A stretch of 30,117 bases of DNA. It comes from a virus. Positions 2,508 through 18,780 of the stretch are shown piece after piece (position 1 is the first letter of the stretch; each line of letters begins with the position of its first letter). The stretch lies in IMG/VR virus record IMGVR_UViG_3300046007_006364, positions 1-30,117 of that record; one strand, given 5' to 3'. The notes under the pieces are model-generated. The model was not told where the DNA came from. It saw nothing but the letters and a program-made list of their open reading frames with translations, and did no database searches. The position numbers were made by a program, and so were the translations under genes.

Positions 2508-3338
2508 TTATAGTTCCAAATACTGCAATTTAAAATCTTCAGCTTGTTGTTCATATCCGATGTATCCTCGTGGATTGCAAACAATTCTGCAAGAACCAAT
2601 CATATAATCAAAATTATGATGAGTATGTCCATGAGTCCACAATTTAATTTGTGGGTGATCTAGTATGAATTCACTTAGATCACTAGCATATGCACCGTTC
2701 ATGATTTGGTCATCCTTGTAATTAGGATGAATACTCATCTTACTAGGTGCCATGTGGCCAACTACCACAAATTTTTCATCAAACTTACCTTCAGTAACAG
2801 TACGGATATATTCTACACTATGGCGGTGTCTAGCCGCAGTATGTGCAGGACGAAGTTTGGTATAACCCTTACTGTCCTCACGAATGATACGGTAATCATT
2901 CATCATATCTCCGACACTATGGAGTGTAAGTGGATCAAATTTGTTCATGTCAGTCCACAATGTACACCCAATAAAATTTACACCATCGATGACTTTTAAA
3001 TCATTTTCCATGAAGTAAATATTAGGAAACTTTGCACATTCATTGTATAGGTCATCAAGGCTACCATGAAACTTACCATGATAAAATTCATGATTACCTG
3101 CAATGTAAATAACATGCGGGAACTGAAAACTACAACGCTTCAAAAAATCACGGAAGCGTTGAGCACTTTCTTGTCGCCTGCCCAAGTTTACAACAGGATT
3201 GATTGGTTCGGGATGGTCATGTAAATCCTGAGCAATCATAATGTCGCCACTAAGGATTAAAACGTCTGCGCCCTCATCATTGGTGAGGTTAATGTCTCCG
3301 AATTCTAAATGTAAGTCTGACGCAAGTGCAATTTTCAT
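2508..3338 (-). CDS. Calcineurin-like metallophosphoesterase (active-site intact)
   Basis: 276 aa. All five motifs of the binuclear metallophosphoesterase fold are present: D8-L-H10, G31-D32, GNHE (81-84), G194-H195 and GHTH (237-240). The enzyme would hydrolyse a phosphomonoester or phosphodiester in the cytoplasm; the substrate cannot be read. The gene has no Shine-Dalgarno; a TATAAT box ends nine bases before its ATG, so the mRNA is probably almost leaderless. A degenerate relative lacking the metal ligands is encoded at 15769-16461, with several shared segments (GCT in strand, VCNP near the C-terminus). Confidence 0.92.
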   Translation of the reverse strand: MKIALASDLHLEFGDINLTNDEGADVLILSGDIMIAQDLHDHPEPINPVVNLGRRQESAQRFRDFLKRCSFQFPHVIYIAGNHEFYHGKFHGSLDDLYNECAKFPNIYFMENDLKVIDGVNFIGCTLWTDMNKFDPLTLHSVGDMMNDYRIIREDSKGYTKLRPAHTAARHRHSVEYIRTVTEGKFDEKFVVVGHMAPSKMSIHPNYKDDQIMNGAYASDLSEFILDHPQIKLWTHGHTHHNFDYMIGSCRIVCNPRGYIGYEQQAEDFKLQYLEL

Positions 3339-7547: not shown

Positions 7548-7825
7548 TCACCACTGTCAATTTCGTGGCTACTACCACAATGCTTACAAGTATAACGGGT
7601 CAGGCAACGACCTACCGTAGCACTAGTGTACTCATGCTTGCAAGGAGTACCATCAGGGCGCAGAGGGACTTCACCTGTAGCACGGCCAAACATGTGTTGA
7701 CCACCGCAGTTGGTACAAACCCTATGTGTCTTGTCCTTGTTCCAACTATAACGCAATTCATCGGCAGTCAGTGGCACTTCCTTAGTACCATTACATACAG
7801 GACAGATTCCATATTCACGACTCAT
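7544..7825 (-). CDS. Small zinc-ribbon protein
   Basis: 93 aa with C-x-x-C pairs at CPVC (8-11), CTNC (about 37-40) and CKHC (about 81-84) plus further Cys/His, indicating one or two zinc-binding modules. The CPVCNGTKEVP start recalls DnaJ-type zinc knuckles, but no J-domain is present. Overlaps neighbours by four bases on both sides. Nucleic-acid or protein binding is the likely role; the target cannot be told. Confidence 0.78.
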   Translation of the reverse strand: MSREYGICPVCNGTKEVPLTADELRYSWNKDKTHRVCTNCGGQHMFGRATGEVPLRPDGTPCKHEYTSATVGRCLTRYTCKHCGSSHEIDSGD

Positions 7826-8271
7826 TTTACTAACCTCGCTTGTATTTCCAAATAAAACATTTGATATTTTGCCATCCTAGCAATGTCTTTTTCAGTAACA
7901 CCTTTAAGACGGCGTATATCAGTATTATGACGCAAATCTGCCATTTTTACTCTCATGGCATCCTCATTTGCAAAAACACCTTCTTTGTATTCTTCGTATG
8001 TTTGACCCGGGACCTTAGTTAAAGCCCGGATTCCTTCAATAACCCGTTCACTGATACCTGCTTCACGCAAATCCTTGTAAGTTACACTAGTATCCTCAAT
8101 AACATCGTGGCCAAGTGCCATGCACATAAGTTCCTCGTCATCGGTCTTGAGATAATGCATGACCTTGAGAGGATGAAGAATGTAGGGATTTCCGCCCCTG
8201 TCAAATTGACCATGATGAGCCTTGGTTGCTATCATTAGCATCTTATCTAACATTTCACCTTTTCTCATCAT
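7822..8271 (-). CDS. HD-domain (p)ppGpp hydrolase-like protein (SpoT/MESH1 type)
   Basis: 149 aa from the ATG at 8271, chosen for AAGGA four to seven bases upstream; the longer frame runs into the promoter. The SpoT hydrolase ligand pattern is complete: AHHGQFDR (18-25), HP (33-34), GHDVIED (54-60), LTK (about 84-86) and KMADLRHN (109-116). It lacks the synthetase, TGS and ACT domains, like animal and bacterial small alarmone hydrolases. It would remove the 3'-pyrophosphate of (p)ppGpp and relieve the stringent response in the infected cell. It is driven by a strong early promoter. Activity on other pyrophosphorylated nucleotides is possible. Confidence 0.85.
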   Translation of the reverse strand: MMRKGEMLDKMLMIATKAHHGQFDRGGNPYILHPLKVMHYLKTDDEELMCMALGHDVIEDTSVTYKDLREAGISERVIEGIRALTKVPGQTYEEYKEGVFANEDAMRVKMADLRHNTDIRRLKGVTEKDIARMAKYQMFYLEIQARLVK

Positions 8272-8297
8272 TTTATCCTTCTTTCTACTGTATCTAT

Positions 8298-8326
8298 AGT
8301 ATACTACTAAATCCATTTATTGTCAA
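8298..8326 (-). promoter_or_regulatory. Sigma70 early promoter (TTGACA-17-TATACT)
   Basis: The first 14-15 spacer bases (ATAAATGGATTTxG) match the promoters at 6787 and 7112, so it belongs to the same promoter family. Drives the alarmone-hydrolase gene. Confidence 0.9.
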
Positions 8327-11936: not shown

Positions 11937-12578
11937 TTAAAAAACCAATGAACCCAATGATTCATGCCTTACTCCTGTAAGACCTTTCCAAAATGTATTG
12001 AAGCTAAGACTTCTTCTAGCCGGCGCATCTGTCGTTGTTTGCTCTACAAAATGGGCACAGTTAGACAAAAATAAAACCATGTGATTTTTTAGATTGTTTA
12101 CGCTATTTGGATCAATATTATTATCAAACAATAATTGCTTTAATGCAACATATGATTTATTTTTTGTGATGAAATAGGGAATGTCAGGCATGAATGCTTC
12201 TACATATAGATTTGCATTTGTTGGATTATCATCAAGATAAATTACACCGCTTACTACACTAAAAGGATGTACATGGTCGTGATGTGAATGTCCGGGCTCT
12301 GTAATGTTACCCCAACTATAAGTCATACGCAAATCTTCATAGTATGGTTGTAAATTTAGTGATCGGTCAATATAGTTTTTGCAAACCTCATTTATTAGTG
12401 TTTTAGATTTATCAAACTCTGGTTTGTCAAAAAAATTCATTTCATTACTAATTTTGTTAGCAATGTTATCCTTCCATGTTAATTTTGAAAATTCATTATT
12501 GATAAGATCAAAGTCAAGAACACTTGTCATGTCCTTAATCAAAATAAATTTTTGAGAAGTATTGAATAGTGTATCCAT
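11937..12578 (-). CDS. 2OG-Fe(II) oxygenase-like protein
   Basis: 213 aa. H97-x-H99-H100-D101-H102-x-H104-PFS and VVSGVIYLDD form the N-terminal iron-ligand region of a double-stranded beta-helix oxygenase; LFLSNCAH (His176) gives the distal histidine and RRSLSFNTFWKG the 2-oxoglutarate arginine. Close-looking phage proteins are annotated as putative 2OG-Fe(II) oxygenases with unknown substrate; hydroxylation of a protein or small molecule is the general reaction. The start is coupled to the clpP stop (TAATG). The other oxygenase-like gene is at 28076-28696. Confidence 0.82.
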   Translation of the reverse strand: MDTLFNTSQKFILIKDMTSVLDFDLINNEFSKLTWKDNIANKISNEMNFFDKPEFDKSKTLINEVCKNYIDRSLNLQPYYEDLRMTYSWGNITEPGHSHHDHVHPFSVVSGVIYLDDNPTNANLYVEAFMPDIPYFITKNKSYVALKQLLFDNNIDPNSVNNLKNHMVLFLSNCAHFVEQTTTDAPARRSLSFNTFWKGLTGVRHESLGSLVF

Positions 12579-13165
12579 TATCTGCGTTCAATAATTTTAT
12601 CGGCTAATCCATAATCAACAGCTTCTTGGGCTGACATGAAAAAATCTCGTTCCATATCATGTTGCAATTGATTAAAAGATTTTTTCTTTGAATTGTGCCG
12701 CACATAAATTTCAGTTAAAGATTTCTTTAGTGCTAAAATTTCTTTGACCTGAATTTCCATATCTGTTGCTTGACCCCTTGCACCACCGCTAGGTTGATGA
12801 ATCATGTGTCGTGCATTAGGTAGAATCATTCGTTTACCTGCTGCTCCTGCTTGGGCAAGCAAACTACCCATACTACATGCTTGACCCATAACGATTGTAC
12901 TTACATCAGGTTTAATAAATTGCATTGTATCGTAAATTGCCATGCCAGCAGTCACACTACCACCAGGACTATTAATATAAAGGCTGATGTCTTTATCTGC
13001 ATTTTCGCTTTCCAGGAACAATAGTTGGGCAACAATCAAGTTTGCCATTTGGTCATGTACTTCACCCTCAAGCAAAATTACACGGTCACGCAATAGGCGA
13101 CTATAGATATCATAACTGCGCTCACCGCGACTTGTTTGTTCCAAAACAATAGGTACTAGACTCAT
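12578..13165 (-). CDS. clpP: ClpP serine protease subunit
   Basis: 195 aa, the size of a mature ClpP without a long propeptide. The catalytic triad is intact: Ser98 in GQACSMGS, His123 in MIHQPSGG and Asp174 in MERDFF. The [11 protein letters not shown] oxyanion/handle block is also normal. ClpP forms a tetradecamer that degrades substrates delivered by ClpX or ClpA in the cytoplasm. It has its own TTGACT-16-TATAAT promoter and RBS AAGGA. ClpX, ClpS and a small heat-shock protein are encoded 3-6 kb upstream on the same strand. Phage ClpP alone is known; the full set is less usual. Confidence 0.96.
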
Positions 13166-13218: not shown

Positions 13219-14787
13219 TTATTTACGCTTTTGACGCCCAACATCGCCTACTGCTTTGGCAGGCTTATCACTGGGCATACTAGATTGCCCTGTTAGTCTT
13301 GCGGCTGTTTTTGCAATTGGCTCGTCGGGAGTCGATCTTTCATCACCTACCCCTGCATCAACTCCGTTATACGCAAAATTCATTCTGCCGCCTGCTGCGG
13401 TAGCTGAATAGTTTTTGCTTGGATCAAGAGCCACTGTTCCTCTAAAGTTAGGAGGGTACTTACTTTCAAACCCTACAACAGCAACATCACCATCTTTTTG
13501 TTTTGTTGCCTTCATATGTAATTGAATAATTGGACTACTGTTTAAGAATTTTAAACAAGCCTCACCAAATTTTGGATCGTTATTAACTTGACCTGCTACA
13601 ATATCGGCTAATGCGCTAAGACAGTGGTATCCTACATTATAATTTGGAAGTTCTGTTTTTGCCCCTTTGTATCCAATTAAATTAGTCAATTCCACGGCTG
13701 TCTTTTCATCCATGTCTACTTGATCAAGAGATTTAGCACCTACTTTAATTAGTTCTCTAATTTTTTCGGCTGCTATAGGGGTAAGCATTTCTTTTTCAAT
13801 TGCATAATTTAATGGAAAATCTATTGTGCTATCTTTTCCTATACGCTCAATTAATTTTACTTCTTTAGCATATTTTTTAAGCAATTGTTTTTGTTCATCT
13901 GAACCTTTGAGGCGTACATAATCAATACCGTCAGCAACATTTTTAATACTTGCAGTTGCACCCTTTTCACCTTTACTACTGATACCTATTTCAACCCCAG
14001 TAGGAGTAACGATGTAACTATCTACTAATCCATTTGTTTTTCCACTTGGAAAACTAATACTACTGCCGCTATAGTTCCCGCCGTCTAACAAATCTCTTGC
14101 TGCTGCCTTAGCACCAGTACCGCAATCTAAACCTTGAATTAAAGCAACTGGACCTATAGTTTCACCTAAGTCATCACGAATAGCGGTAAAGAATTCTCCA
14201 GCGCCCTCGAATACAGGAAACTGTGGTTTTTTCGCATATAGCATTTCAAAGCCAGGAACAAATGGTTGTGTGGCTTCTGCTTGTTTAAAGGTATCCAGTA
14301 AATCATATATGTTTTTAAATCTTGCTGGAGGAGGAAATATGTCACTGGGTTTTAAACCATAACTTGCTTTTAAACTTGTTTCTTTTTCTAATTGATACCC
14401 GAATGCATTCATATCACTATTTGCCCATGTGCCTGCCATGTCAGGTTTAATATTAGCAAAAAACCTTGAAAAATACACAGGTCTGCGAGTTTTTTCATCA
14501 GTAAGTACAATTACTGCAAACGCTTTGCTTGCCTTAGTTGGTTTATTAACAGCTTGCATACCTTGATACTGTGTTTCTAATTCCGAGTATGCATCCATCA
14601 TTTCTTCATGTGTATCATATGCTCCGGGCTGATCTGGATAGTATTCTGCTCTATCAAAAAGTAATGCGGATTCTGGATTATCTCTTTTACCCTTAAAAAA
14701 ACGGTCATTTTTTGCCCTAAATAATAATCCACGACTTTTTTCAGTAAGTATGGAAAAACTCTCAATTATATTAATTAAATCACGCAT
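13219..14787 (-). CDS. 522-aa unknown protein, possible virion or nuclease-related
   Basis: The frame is open to 14877, but the ATG at 14787 ([11 protein letters not shown]) avoids running into the SprT gene and has a late-type motif (CATAAATA) six bases upstream region. The first 30 residues are helical; the middle is compact and Gly-rich with a strand pair [22 protein letters not shown] (about 255-276). That segment could be an E-x-x-x-S-K active-site-like strand as in PD-(D/E)xK folds, though this is weak. The C-terminal 60 residues are low-complexity, basic and proline-rich. The size and late motif would fit a structural or ejected protein. Confidence 0.75.
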
Positions 14788-14794
14788 AATAGTA

Positions 14795-14802
14795 TATTTA
14801 TG
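14795..14802 (-). promoter_or_regulatory. Late-type promoter motif (CATAAATA) upstream of the 522-aa gene
   Basis: CATAAATATACTATT abuts the ATG at 14787, nearly the T4 late consensus TATAAATACTATT. No Shine-Dalgarno is present. Confidence 0.45.
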
Positions 14803-14806
14803 TATA

Positions 14807-15298
14807 TTAACATTTAAACAAGTTTTGATATTTAAACCATTTGCTAATGCTGTGAGCCCGGCGTAGAGGGATGCCATGTTTTGCTAACTTGTCTCTAAAC
14901 ATGAAAAATGAAGGACCATGACTCATTAATGGTGGTTTATTTTGTTTTAATCTTTTAATGCTCACAATATCCCATTGATATTGGTGACACATTTCATGAG
15001 CTAGTGTCAAAATTAACCACTGTTTACAATACCATTTGTTAGATAATGTAATAGTACAATTGCTTCTTTTGTTTGTTATTGGTATATAGTGATTAGCAGA
15101 ACAAAGGCCCCAATAATCTTTCGATCTTGTTAGTATTTCAAAAGTAGGCATGGGTAATTTATTACCGAATATCTCTTTGTTAAGTAGCTTAAAAAGTCCA
15201 ATAATTTCTCTCCGTGAAGTCCTATAACTTTCACGTTTTTGGGAGCTGAGGCTAGGAACACCCTCAGCCATCATCTGGTATAGGACGCTTTTGGACAT
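14807..15298 (-). CDS. SprT-like zinc metalloprotease
   Basis: 163 aa. H101-E-M-C-H105 is the HExxH zinc-binding/catalytic motif, followed by H127 in SHGPSFF as the likely third ligand, the order seen in SprT/Spartan-type peptidases. The basic N-terminus and a 'TLAHEMCHQYQ' helix fit too. SprT-like enzymes degrade proteins crosslinked to DNA; the phage role is unknown, perhaps clearing protein-DNA adducts. The gene has a late-type motif just before its ATG and no Shine-Dalgarno. No C-terminal zinc ribbon is seen. Confidence 0.82.
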   Translation of the reverse strand: MSKSVLYQMMAEGVPSLSSQKRESYRTSRREIIGLFKLLNKEIFGNKLPMPTFEILTRSKDYWGLCSANHYIPITNKRSNCTITLSNKWYCKQWLILTLAHEMCHQYQWDIVSIKRLKQNKPPLMSHGPSFFMFRDKLAKHGIPLRRAHSISKWFKYQNLFKC

Positions 15299-15372: not shown

Positions 15373-15385
15373 TTAAATACTATAT
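15373..15385 (+). promoter_or_regulatory. Late-type promoter motif on the plus strand (TTAAATACTATAT)
   Basis: TTAAATACTAT agrees with the T4 late consensus TATAAATACTATT. Unlike the minus-strand examples it is followed by a leader of about 20 bases with AGGAG and the ATG at 15407. Confidence 0.5.
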
Positions 15386-15406: not shown

Positions 15407-15763
15407 ATGGAATTAATTATCGGATTAGCTGTTGTTGCAGTACTTGTTTACTTTTTCTTTTTTAAGGATAAAACTGTTACTAAAAAAGAAGAACCTGAGG
15501 CACCTTATAAGGTTGAAACTCCACCCGTCGTAGAAGTACAACCTCCTTTAGTGGAGCCAACACCCGCACCCGCGCCTGAAGTTGCGACAGTTCAGCCTGT
15601 TGCTGTAATTAATGCAGCCGACAAACCAAAAGCTACCAAAACAGTATCAAAAACCAAAACTGCTAAAGCTCCAGCTACAAAAACCGCAGCTACAAAAACC
15701 GCAGCTACCAAAGCTAAAGCTCCTGCAAAAGCTAAAAAACCTAAAATGACTGTGGCTAAGTAA
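15407..15763 (+). CDS. Membrane-anchored, lysine/alanine-rich histone-like protein
   Basis: 118 aa. Residues 1-20 are a transmembrane anchor (ELIIGLAVVAVLVYFFFF); 28-65 are acidic then Pro/Val-rich like a spacer; 72-118 are Lys/Ala/Thr/Pro repeats (TKTAA units) resembling histone H1 or AlgP C-termini, strongly basic. It should tether DNA or acidic partners to the inner face of the membrane if the N-terminus is outside or a signal anchor. The RBS is AGGAG. It begins one of only two plus-strand genes. Lysine-rich tails are composition-driven, so homology is not implied. Confidence 0.78.
   Translation: MELIIGLAVVAVLVYFFFFKDKTVTKKEEPEAPYKVETPPVVEVQPPLVEPTPAPAPEVATVQPVAVINAADKPKATKTVSKTKTAKAPATKTAATKTAATKAKAPAKAKKPKMTVAK
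15674..15703 (+). repeat. Two 15-bp tandem repeats in the lysine-rich tail
   Basis: GCTACAAAAACCGCA is repeated exactly twice, followed by a diverged third copy. Each unit encodes ATKTA, so the repeat can grow or shrink without frameshift. Confidence 0.85.
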
Positions 15764-15768
15764 GGCTA

Positions 15769-16461
15769 ATGGAAATAGGCTTCGATTTAATTAGTGATTT
15801 AAATTTATTGCCTGAAAACAATTTCAACTGGGAAAACAAAGCTACCAGTTTGTATTGTCTTGTGGCAGGAAATGTCAGTTCTGACGTCAAAACAGTCGGG
15901 GTAACATTAAATCACTTGTCTAAGTTTTATCAGGGTGTCTTTTATGTTCCTGGATCTTTAGAATTTGAGGATACGGACAGGTTTCAACATAGATTAGTTG
16001 AAATTACTAAAATCTGTAAAAAAATTCGTAATGTCGCATTACTTCATCAGCATGTAGTCATCATTGATGGCATAGCTATTTTAGGCTGTACAGGGTATTA
16101 TGGTAAAGAAGATGCATACAATTTTGAAGAATTGTATGGACAAAACAGGTTTGAAGATGTTGTATATTTAAAAAACTCTTTAGAAAAACTGCAAAAACAC
16201 TTAGATGTTAAAAAAATTGTTTTAATGACAAATTCTGTGCCAAACAATCAATTATATTTTGGTGAACTTCCCCCTGACACAGAAACTTTACCTGAATTGT
16301 CTTTGACACTATTTGCCGATAGTGAAACTAAAGTTTCACATTGGGCATATGGAAGCTATAAAAAAATAGTTGATACTACATTAAATAATATCAACTATGT
16401 GTGTAATCCTAGTCTAGGATCAAATTTTTATTACGCAAAAAGAATCAATGTATCTCTTTAA
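15769..16461 (+). CDS. Degenerate metallophosphoesterase-fold protein (predicted inactive)
   Basis: 230 aa. It follows the whole metallophosphoesterase layout but the metal ligands are changed: ISD10-L-N12 (H to N), AGN35 for GD, GSLE (62-65) for GNHE, TNS (154-156) for the GH histidine, and GSYK (195-198) for GHTH. The fold landmarks ILGCTGY (104-110) and YVCNPSLG (210-217) align with GCTLWT and IVCNPRGY in the active enzyme at 2508-3338. It probably is a non-catalytic, structural or binding relative. It directly follows the lysine-rich gene and its stop overlaps the clpS stop. Confidence 0.75.
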   Translation: MEIGFDLISDLNLLPENNFNWENKATSLYCLVAGNVSSDVKTVGVTLNHLSKFYQGVFYVPGSLEFEDTDRFQHRLVEITKICKKIRNVALLHQHVVIIDGIAILGCTGYYGKEDAYNFEELYGQNRFEDVVYLKNSLEKLQKHLDVKKIVLMTNSVPNNQLYFGELPPDTETLPELSLTLFADSETKVSHWAYGSYKKIVDTTLNNINYVCNPSLGSNFYYAKRINVSL

Positions 16462-16763
16462 GCCTCTGCTTCTACTTTAATTTGTAACGGGAAACCTTGC
16501 GCCCTTGCATCTAAAGTAACTTCAATACCTTTTTGTTCAGCGATTTCATAGGGTAGAATTGCAACAACAGCACTACCTTCGTCATGAATATTTTTTGTTA
16601 TGTTTAACGCTGTATCTGTGGTGTAATTAAAATAATCTACTAGTGAACCAATTACAAAATCCATAGTTGTAACATCATCATTCATGTAAATGATTTTAAA
16701 CAACGGAGGTTCTTGTAGTGCAACGTTTGGCTTGATTTTTACTTTAGTATCTGTTTTAGACAT
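16458..16763 (-). CDS. clpS: ClpS adaptor of the Clp protease (N-degron recognition)
   Basis: 101 aa. The ClpS core is complete: PPLFKIIYMNDDVTTMDFVI, with N28, D29, D30, T33, M34 and V37 matching the N-end amino-acid pocket, and H60 in NIHDEGSAVV. In bacteria ClpS delivers proteins with Leu/Phe/Tyr/Trp N-termini to ClpA, not ClpX. The phage has clpX and clpP but I see no clpA in this window, so it may act with host ClpA or block it. ATG at 16763 is chosen because the longer frame begins within a hairpin; AGAG lies eight bases upstream. The C-terminus overlaps the convergent plus-strand gene. Confidence 0.9.
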   Translation of the reverse strand: MSKTDTKVKIKPNVALQEPPLFKIIYMNDDVTTMDFVIGSLVDYFNYTTDTALNITKNIHDEGSAVVAILPYEIAEQKGIEVTLDARAQGFPLQIKVEAEA

Positions 16764-16776
16764 GATAATTCTCTTT

Positions 16777-16807
16777 GAAAAAGTGTGCGGCATTATTACC
16801 GCACACT
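16777..16807 (-). terminator. Terminator-like hairpin between hsp20 and clpS
   Basis: AGTGTGCGG and CCGCACACT form a perfect 9-bp stem with an 8-base loop and a following U-run on the minus strand. It ends 14 bases before the clpS ATG. It may end hsp20 mRNA, act as an attenuator, or protect a 5' end. Confidence 0.8.
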
Positions 16808-16815
16808 GTACTATA

Positions 16816-17259
16816 TTATTTAGTATAGGTTATTGCAATCTTCTTGGGTTTTTGTTCTTCAGGAATTTGACGCTCAAGATTAACAGTCAAAATACCATCT
16901 TCAACATTTGCACCTGTAACCTCAACATGGTCTGCAAGAGTCCATGAACGGTGAAAATTGCGAGCACTAATACCACGATGTAGATACTCAATGTTATCAT
17001 TTAGTTCTACAGCCTTTTCGCCCTTGACACTTAATTGATTTTGTTCAACAGTAATGTCAATGTCGCCCTCTTTAAAACCAGCTACTGCTAGTTCAATACT
17101 AAACTTATCCTCACTATGTTTCACAACATTGTATGGTGGATAGTTTGTACTTTGAGTATTTGCTGTATGACGCAATAGATCGTCAAACATTTGGTCAAAG
17201 CCAACTGCAAATTTATGAATTGAGGGGATATCTAACGAACGTAGGGATAGGTTTGTCAT
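16816..17259 (-). CDS. hsp20: Small heat-shock protein (Hsp20/alpha-crystallin)
   Basis: 147 aa from the ATG at 17259, preceded by GGAG seven bases upstream; the longer frame has no RBS. The alpha-crystallin domain spans about 40-135: KHSEDKFSIELAVAGFKEGDIDITVEQNQLSVKGEK, then YLHRGISARNFHRSWTLADHVEVTGANVEDGILTVNLER, as in IbpA/B. Hsp20s hold unfolding proteins for refolding. T4-like cyanophages also carry them and they may help virion or replication protein folding. CTAAATAATA motifs lie at 17320 and 17355 upstream, candidates for late promoters. It is 100 bases after bS21. Confidence 0.93.
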   Translation of the reverse strand: MTNLSLRSLDIPSIHKFAVGFDQMFDDLLRHTANTQSTNYPPYNVVKHSEDKFSIELAVAGFKEGDIDITVEQNQLSVKGEKAVELNDNIEYLHRGISARNFHRSWTLADHVEVTGANVEDGILTVNLERQIPEEQKPKKIAITYTK

Positions 17260-17319
17260 TTCATTTCTCCTTTCTTTAAGCAAGAATGACACTGTAGACC
17301 CGACCATCGGCATCTACAA

Positions 17320-17329
17320 TATTATTTAG
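17320..17329 (-). promoter_or_regulatory. Late-type promoter motif (CTAAATAATA) upstream of hsp20
   Basis: One of three copies of CTAAATAATA in this area (others at 17355-17364 and 16814-16823). This copy lies about 60 bases before the hsp20 ATG, with a leader that contains GGAG. Confidence 0.45.
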
Positions 17330-17354
17330 TATATACAAATTGTGCAAAAAAATC

Positions 17355-17364
17355 TATTATTTAG
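17355..17364 (-). promoter_or_regulatory. Second late-type motif (CTAAATAATA) between bS21 and hsp20
   Basis: A second copy, one base past the bS21 stop. Two in tandem suggest two late starts or a spaced regulatory site. Confidence 0.4.
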
Positions 17365-17365
17365 G

Positions 17366-17584
17366 TTAAAATAATTTTTTAGGAAGTTCTTGACCTTTAA
17401 GAAATCTTTCCCATCTTTTTTTAGCCTGTGCTTTGGCTATTTTTTTCTTGACCGTAGGCTTAGTATAGAACTGTCTGTTCTGTAATTCAAGTAGTAGCCC
17501 ATCTTCGCTTATTTTTTTCTTAAATTTGCGTAGAGCTTTGTCTACATTGCCGTCCTGTACTAATACCTTACGCCCTTTTATCAT
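17366..17584 (-). CDS. rpsU: Ribosomal protein bS21
   Basis: 72 aa, the usual bS21 length (71 in E. coli). Core DKALRKFKKKISEDGLL then RQFYTKPTVKKKIAKAQAKKR is diagnostic. bS21 sits in the 30S platform near the anti-Shine-Dalgarno helix and can be exchanged on ribosomes. Phage-encoded bS21 has been reported in pelagiphages and huge phages, where it is thought to steer ribosomes toward phage mRNA. It overlaps the clpX stop (ATGA) and precedes hsp20. The leaderless mRNAs predicted here make a ribosome-altering protein of special interest. Confidence 0.93.
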   Translation of the reverse strand: MIKGRKVLVQDGNVDKALRKFKKKISEDGLLLELQNRQFYTKPTVKKKIAKAQAKKRWERFLKGQELPKKLF

Positions 17585-18780
17585 AACATAGATTTTGGTT
17601 GGATTACCAACTCCTGATTAATATTTATCTCGTTTATATCATTTTTGGCATATTTTTTAAGGTTGTACATATGCGGCATTAGTACCTTTTCAATTTCTGT
17701 ATGTAAACCCCGTGCGCCTGTTTTTAATTTTAAACAATTATCAACAATTTGATGTAATGCTGAATCTTCGAAATTTAGATTAATTTTATCAATTGAAAAC
17801 AAATATTGATATTGTGTTATATAGTTATTTTTAATGCCTGTAAGTACTTCTAGTAATTGTTCTCTGTTCAGGTCTGTCAAAGTTACGCTGGTTGTAAATC
17901 TACCAATAAACTCAGGTATCATACCAAATTTAGTTAGATCATCGGGCGACACATCAGACAATGGCACTTCGTCACTTTTACTTCTCACATCAGCACCGAA
18001 TCCCATTGTTGTCCCTTTTACTCTGGACTTAATGATGTCTTTTAAACCTACAAAAGCACCACCTGCAATAAACAATATGTTTTTAGTGTTGATTTCAAGC
18101 ATTTCTCCGCCTGGATGTTTTCTTCCACCACTAGCTGGAATTCTACATACTGTACCCTCAACAAGTTTAAGCAATGCTTGTTGAACACCTTCACCACTTA
18201 CATCACGGGTGATACTTGTGCTTTCACCCTTTCGTGCAATTTTATCAATTTCATCAATAAAAACTATTCCGCGCTCTGCTAATTTTACATCACCGCCGGC
18301 TGCATTTACTAACATGCTAATCATTGATTCTACATCATCGCCCACATATCCAGCTTCGGTCAATGATGTTGCATCAGCAACAACAAAAGGAACATTCAAA
18401 AATTTTGCAACAGTCCTAGCCAGTAATGTTTTACCAGATCCAGTAGGACCGATCAACAAAATGTTACCTTTAGAAATTTCTAAATCTTTTGGTGGATTAT
18501 CTAATCTTTTGAAATGGTTTGCGATTGCTACGCTTAATACCATTTTTGCACTATCTTGACCGATTACATATTTGTCAAGGTAGTTTTTAATTTCTACTGG
18601 ATCATAATCAACTTGTTCTGTTTTTTCTATCTCAACTGTTGTATCATCGTTGATGAGTTTATTACACAAGTCAATACAATCACTACATATAGCCACTGAC
18701 TCACTTACTATAAGTTTTTTGACTACATCTTTATGGTTTCCACAAAAGGAACAATGATTTATTTTGTTTTCTTGGCTCAT
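17581..18780 (-). CDS. clpX: ClpX AAA+ unfoldase
   Basis: 399 aa (E. coli 424). An N-terminal C4 zinc-binding domain (C10, C13, C32, C35) precedes the AAA+ module: Walker A GPTGSGKT (111-118), pore loop GYVG (144-147), Walker B IVFIDEID (172-179), RKH loop (220-222), MGF (259-261) in place of the IGF ClpP-docking loop, IPEFIGR, and sensor 2 GARGL (355-359). So it can bind ClpP, unfold substrates and take adaptors. The start has no Shine-Dalgarno. A TATAAT box at 18813-18818 precedes it, but without a good -35 box. bS21 is coupled downstream. Confidence 0.96.
   Translation of the reverse strand: MSQENKINHCSFCGNHKDVVKKLIVSESVAICSDCIDLCNKLINDDTTVEIEKTEQVDYDPVEIKNYLDKYVIGQDSAKMVLSVAIANHFKRLDNPPKDLEISKGNILLIGPTGSGKTLLARTVAKFLNVPFVVADATSLTEAGYVGDDVESMISMLVNAAGGDVKLAERGIVFIDEIDKIARKGESTSITRDVSGEGVQQALLKLVEGTVCRIPASGGRKHPGGEMLEINTKNILFIAGGAFVGLKDIIKSRVKGTTMGFGADVRSKSDEVPLSDVSPDDLTKFGMIPEFIGRFTTSVTLTDLNREQLLEVLTGIKNNYITQYQYLFSIDKINLNFEDSALHQIVDNCLKLKTGARGLHTEIEKVLMPHMYNLKKYAKNDINEININQELVIQPKSML

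Follow-up and report, generated by a model that had tools for sequence, protein, structure and literature searches.

The 230-aa protein encoded at positions 15,769–16,461 on the plus strand of the window (the whole 30,117-nt stretch of viral DNA analyzed) is, judging from its sequence, a phosphoesterase-fold pseudoenzyme of huge freshwater phages that lost its metal site long ago and has been strictly preserved. A sequence-only reading of this DNA had proposed that the frame follows that of phosphoesterases, and the profile, alignment and fold matches agree on this point. The protein matches the PHROG1649 profile (E 4.4e-5), as do 16 of 21 orthologues (best E 4.3e-9), it is recovered by a profile of intact phosphoesterases (E 5e-8), and profile-profile comparison with the intact homologue P0002 using hhalign aligned 202 columns (E 2.3e-6). 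Its homology to phosphoesterases exceeds chance. Pfam searches with the protein and its orthologues gave no phosphoesterase match, and a sequence search of the PDB with the protein gave no meaningful one.

Fold prediction had been proposed as a check in the original reading. The AlphaFold model, computed with 21 orthologues in the input (pLDDT 87.8, pTM 0.88), has the two-sheet alpha/beta sandwich of the calcineurin-like metallophosphoesterases and matches phosphoesterases in the PDB with E 1e-8. The best Foldseek matches in that database were PptH, Mre11, MPPED2, Dbr1 and purple acid phosphatases, and the top matches among BFVD structures were viral metallophosphoesterases. The first of these, PptH of Mycobacterium tuberculosis (6unc; E 1.3e-8, TM ∼0.68), was solved as a phosphopantetheinyl hydrolase and is 14% identical to the pseudoenzyme. 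As modeled, the product is a calcineurin-like phosphoesterase fold in which the two-metal site is ruined. The closest sequence family is that of the PHROG1649 phage metallophosphoesterases (P0002 and those of Synechococcus phage B23, Salmonella phage Munch and Caulobacter phage CcrColossus), which have the same fold and the GCT and NP strands in common with it. These enzymes keep all metal ligands, whereas the pseudoenzyme keeps only D10, is shorter, and has signatures of its own. PHROG annotation would call the protein an enzyme, a label that is contradicted by its residues.

At the eight former site positions the protein carries D10, N12, N35, S63, L64, N155, S196 and K198. The substitutions originally quoted are all present (H12N, D35N, GNHE to GSLE at 62–65, GH to TN at 154–155, and GHTH to GSYK at 195–198), and the strands GCTG and VCNP are retained. 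The broader statement that all ligands had been lost needs correction: each metal motif is altered, but D10, the Asp with which D-x-H begins, is retained in all 86 orthologues listed. Orthologues were gathered by three scans of viral contigs, taking the best 80 loci per large scan and covering the most distant members incompletely. The patterns of scans 1 and 2 contained none of residues 10, 35 and 62–65, while one scan 3 pattern (LYCxxAGN) included Asn35. The search for orthologues with the same ligand loss found at least 86 distinct proteins, all from uncultivated phages and all with the reading frame conserved. The bridging Asp, D35, is Asn in 86/86 of those listed and restored in none. Besides D10, the residues kept in this set were H12 in 10 orthologues, H155 in 16, and N63, H64, H196 and H198 in one each; one of the eight site residues is kept in 58, two in 26 and three in 2. 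The catalytic motif set (D-x-H, GD, GNH[ED], GH, GHTH) is therefore reduced to at most three of eight site residues in any orthologue listed. In intact homologues, whether they came from these phages or from cultured ones, every ligand is present wherever the sequence covers the position. Searches of cultured phages yielded no orthologue of the pseudoenzyme, only weak matches to annotated phosphoesterases or unnamed proteins, and searches of bacterial and archaeal genomes yielded none either. It might be argued that the protein is still an enzyme with a site rebuilt from other residues, given the invariant D10 and the complete or almost complete invariance of D6, H144, D146, D184, K188 and D202. 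We regard this as very improbable, as H144 and D146 precede their strand in the predicted topology, at the opposite end from the old site, and the loops of that site contain no new conserved His or Cys.

The intact relative of the pseudoenzyme, P0002, is encoded at 2508–3338 on the minus strand, has all eight site residues, and matches Pfam Metallophos (E 1.6e-8). It had been described as lying beside the pseudoenzyme gene; the relative is indeed there, but this wording was loose, since the two are 12.4 kb apart and on opposite strands. The AlphaFold model of P0002 is weaker than that of the pseudoenzyme (pLDDT 77, pTM 0.83). An intact homologue turned up in all but one of 13 long contigs, and the record without one (121 kb) is possibly a fragment. 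In Salmonella phage Munch (L194) the intact phosphoesterase gene adjoins a Clp protease gene, and in Acinetobacter phage AB1I1M-1 (L199) it sits between rIIA and rIIB, so that Clp/rII surroundings form a recurring neighborhood of the intact gene.

In a tree with intact homologues, 30 orthologues of the pseudoenzyme form one clade with support of 100/100. This clade sits on a long branch, and its precise placement among the intact homologues is not resolved by the tree. Recent duplication of the intact neighbor was rejected, because the long branch in the tree points to an ancient split. Nei-Gojobori dN/dS ratios for 27 non-overlapping close pairs ranged from 0.015 to 0.334 (median 0.11). Given the single, fully supported clade and the low dN/dS, the loss appears to be old, most simply a single event, and held by selection; the catalytic loss is thus conserved under purifying selection. 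Loss of site residues would, taken alone, also fit a decaying pseudogene. This explanation has a negligible probability and was rejected: the frame is intact in at least 86 distinct orthologues, and dN/dS is well under 1.

Conservation has moved away from the former ligands. Entropy at positions 12, 63, 155, 196 and 198 is 1.2, 2.4, 1.5, 1.7 and 2.6 bits, respectively, and is near zero at W21-E22-x-K24, T26-S27-L28-Y29, Y54-Q55-G56, L141-Q142-x-H144-x-D146 and Y221-x-x-K224-R225. The clade has fixed the new signatures WExKATSLY, KFYQGVFY, LQxHxD and YWAKR. When the site loops were compared as a set with other loops, conservation was not significantly different (p 0.14). D10 and N35 are invariant across the clade, which counts against the scaffold reading in that the old site seems to retain some ligand-related or structural task. 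Because the ligand positions drift while other motifs are fixed, the pattern is more easily reconciled with a protein-binding scaffold than with a pocket for a common ligand. The suggestion that the protein was selected for a non-catalytic role is thus well supported by the single old loss, the purifying selection, the co-retention of an intact homologue, and this shift of conservation. Of the two roles offered as examples, a structural part or a decoy, a small-molecule decoy is disfavored, as the former pocket positions vary freely. The specific form of this idea would be a sponge in which the old pocket binds a nucleotide or cyclic dinucleotide uncut and so acts against host defense. The invariance of D10, N35, E65, P158 and N213 near the old site would suit such a protein, as would the co-retention of the intact phosphoesterase in the same phages. 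We nevertheless consider it quite unlikely, since the former phosphate/metal positions 63, 196 and 198 are free to vary (1.7–2.6 bits), unlike those of a one-ligand pocket.

Directly upstream of the pseudoenzyme gene, at 15,407–15,763 on the same strand, is a gene for a 118-aa protein with a hydrophobic N-terminal segment, the sequence APYKVE, and an Ala/Lys/Pro-rich tail with the C-terminus KPKMTVAK. Five nucleotides separate its end from the start of the pseudoenzyme gene. A small ORF (64–147 aa) occupies this position in 62 of 64 orthologous loci, with a gap of −1 to 37 nt (median 3). In the 62 loci with a partner, about 36 of these proteins have a hydrophobic N-terminus and about 25 one of the MIKFLKxLFG type; YK[VIL] occurs in 44, and KPKMTVAK or KPKISIAK forms the C-terminus of many. 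The N-terminus looks membrane-binding. A cytoplasmic location of the tail is most likely, because the hydrophobic segment is followed by charged residues and some orthologues have an amphipathic helix only. A spanin role was rejected for the partner, since in many orthologues the helix is merely amphipathic and there is no transmembrane segment. Some partners (L098, L104, L110, L028 and L080) also contain EF-hand or dockerin-like repeats (DLNKDGVVSSEE), with Pfam matches to EF-hand_1 (E 2.7e-6, L110) and Dockerin_1 (8e-5, L028). The variants L016, L025 and L100 contain CGCGRSxxGxCxGLH, which resembles the CxCx2Sx4CxGxH of CDGSH iron-sulphur proteins and has no Pfam match.

The two genes appear to form a unit with a late-type promoter. 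Published late promoter cores are TATAAATA for T4 and CTAAATA for Aeh1 (PMC1524935), and a TAAATA core precedes the unit at 15,374–15,379 (plus strand). TAAATA was found at a set distance upstream of the unit, as expected of a T4-type late gene, in 51 of 62 loci (8.6 expected); in most of the remaining 11 it lies just 5′ of the called start, which is probably too early. The full T4 string with one mismatch allowed was hardly enriched (28/62 versus 23.9 expected), so that only the core at the set distance is enriched. The motif also precedes clpS (56/76 versus 6.1 expected; at 16,817–16,822 on the minus strand in the window), hsp20 (13/15 versus 2.2), and rpsU (51/51 versus 8.4), and is rare or absent upstream of clpP (3/73), clpX (2/78), rIIA (0/12) and the intact phosphoesterase gene (1/30), which as a rule does not lie behind it. 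In a 349-kb relative, TAAATA peaks 20–35 nt before starts and precedes fiber-like genes, a head gene and a gene whose product resembles a tail tube protein such as T4 gp19. From the likeness to the T4 and Aeh1 cores, late expression of the two-gene unit is likely, although this timing rests on a six-base AT-rich motif.

The promoter evidence bears on three alternatives. Counter-defense genes are usually early, so a late-type motif counts further against the nucleotide sponge. It also separates the pseudoenzyme from P0002, of which it might be a regulatory subunit, with live and dead copies forming a heteromer. The intact homologue is present in 12 of 13 long records and the two proteins fall in the same PHROG, but their genes are kilobases apart on opposite strands, differ in the motif (51/62 versus 1/30), and are separated in the tree by the old split, and the 121-kb record, possibly a fragment, has the dead copy only. 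We therefore find a subunit role doubtful. Somewhat less doubtful, though still unlikely, is a role in virion structure or head assembly, in which the fold would serve as a building block and the partner as an assembly or membrane factor. The pseudoenzyme gene has TAAATA in common with head and fiber-like genes, and the pseudoenzyme is highly conserved and constant in length. On the other hand, it matches no structural PHROG and its neighbors are proteostasis genes. Late does not mean structural in these phages, because clpS, hsp20 and rpsU carry the same motif.

These neighbors are themselves conserved. Nearly all loci with sufficient flanking sequence have one gene order: clpP, a variable gene and usually a SprT-like gene, followed on the other strand by the small gene and the pseudoenzyme gene, and beyond these by clpS, hsp20, often rpsU, and clpX. 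The ClpS adaptor (16,458–16,793, minus strand; Pfam ClpS E 1.1e-22) is convergent with the pseudoenzyme gene and overlaps its end by 4 nt. In the window, the minus strand at 16,458–18,780 and 12,578–13,165 encodes ClpS, an HSP20-like protein, a probable S21, ClpX and ClpP. A T4-type Gp23 head protein was found in the five longest (231–364 kb) of 13 records searched.

Taken together, we narrowly favor the view that this pseudoenzyme of ancient loss is a late, membrane-docked, non-catalytic scaffold acting with its small partner; the late-type promoter and the membrane-tethered co-gene argue for such a late-infection scaffold or adaptor. The protein, a relative of PHROG1649-type phage phosphoesterases, would have lost its metal site in a single ancient event and would then have been kept as a metal-independent protein-binding scaffold. 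The pseudoenzyme and the 118-aa protein would be made late and bind each other, with APYKVE and KPKMTVAK in the partner tail as candidate docking peptides. From its predicted membrane attachment and topology, the partner would anchor the scaffold to the host membrane on its cytoplasmic side, and there the scaffold would recruit other late factors. We infer both the complex and the exact job of the pseudoenzyme. Given the conserved ClpS/HSP20/S21/ClpX/ClpP neighborhood, the scaffold would most likely act in late protein quality control or membrane-associated assembly, although clp synteny need not imply a function in common with the pseudoenzyme.

The phosphoesterase fold of VPS29 has been described as a metal-independent rigid scaffold (PMC3101248), and the inactivated calcineurin-like phosphoesterase domain of Dpb2, the B subunit of DNA polymerase epsilon, has a structural role (PMC7308368). 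These proteins show that eukaryotes have put the fold to non-catalytic use. Dpb2 resembles the pseudoenzyme in its inactivated domain but differs in domain layout and partner. VPS29 of retromer is likewise a phosphoesterase-fold scaffold, but its Foldseek match is weak, it is not specially close in sequence or fold, and it keeps residues able to coordinate metal weakly. In a more speculative and unlikely reading, the protein would be the viral equivalent of VPS29: short linear motifs in a membrane-tethered partner would hold the dead phosphoesterase, which would organize a late membrane platform with the phage ClpS/HSP20 proteostasis set during particle assembly. A search of open-licence papers found no metallophosphoesterase pseudoenzyme of a phage. 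Because the clade combines an ancient loss with an intact homologue to compare it with, a partner gene that is almost fixed, and a promoter class common to several genes, its function is directly testable.

Other genes also drew attention. The listed start of the minus-strand ORF at 13,219–14,877 overlaps the SprT-like gene, and a TAAATA at 14,795–14,800 with an in-frame ATG after it suggests that the true start is at about 14,787. An HD-domain protein is encoded at 7822–8316 on the minus strand (Pfam HD_4, E 6e-5, a match that does not reach the curated cut-off), and in the 349-kb relative the minus-strand ORF at L215:1918–3813 looks, by eye, like a phage DnaK.
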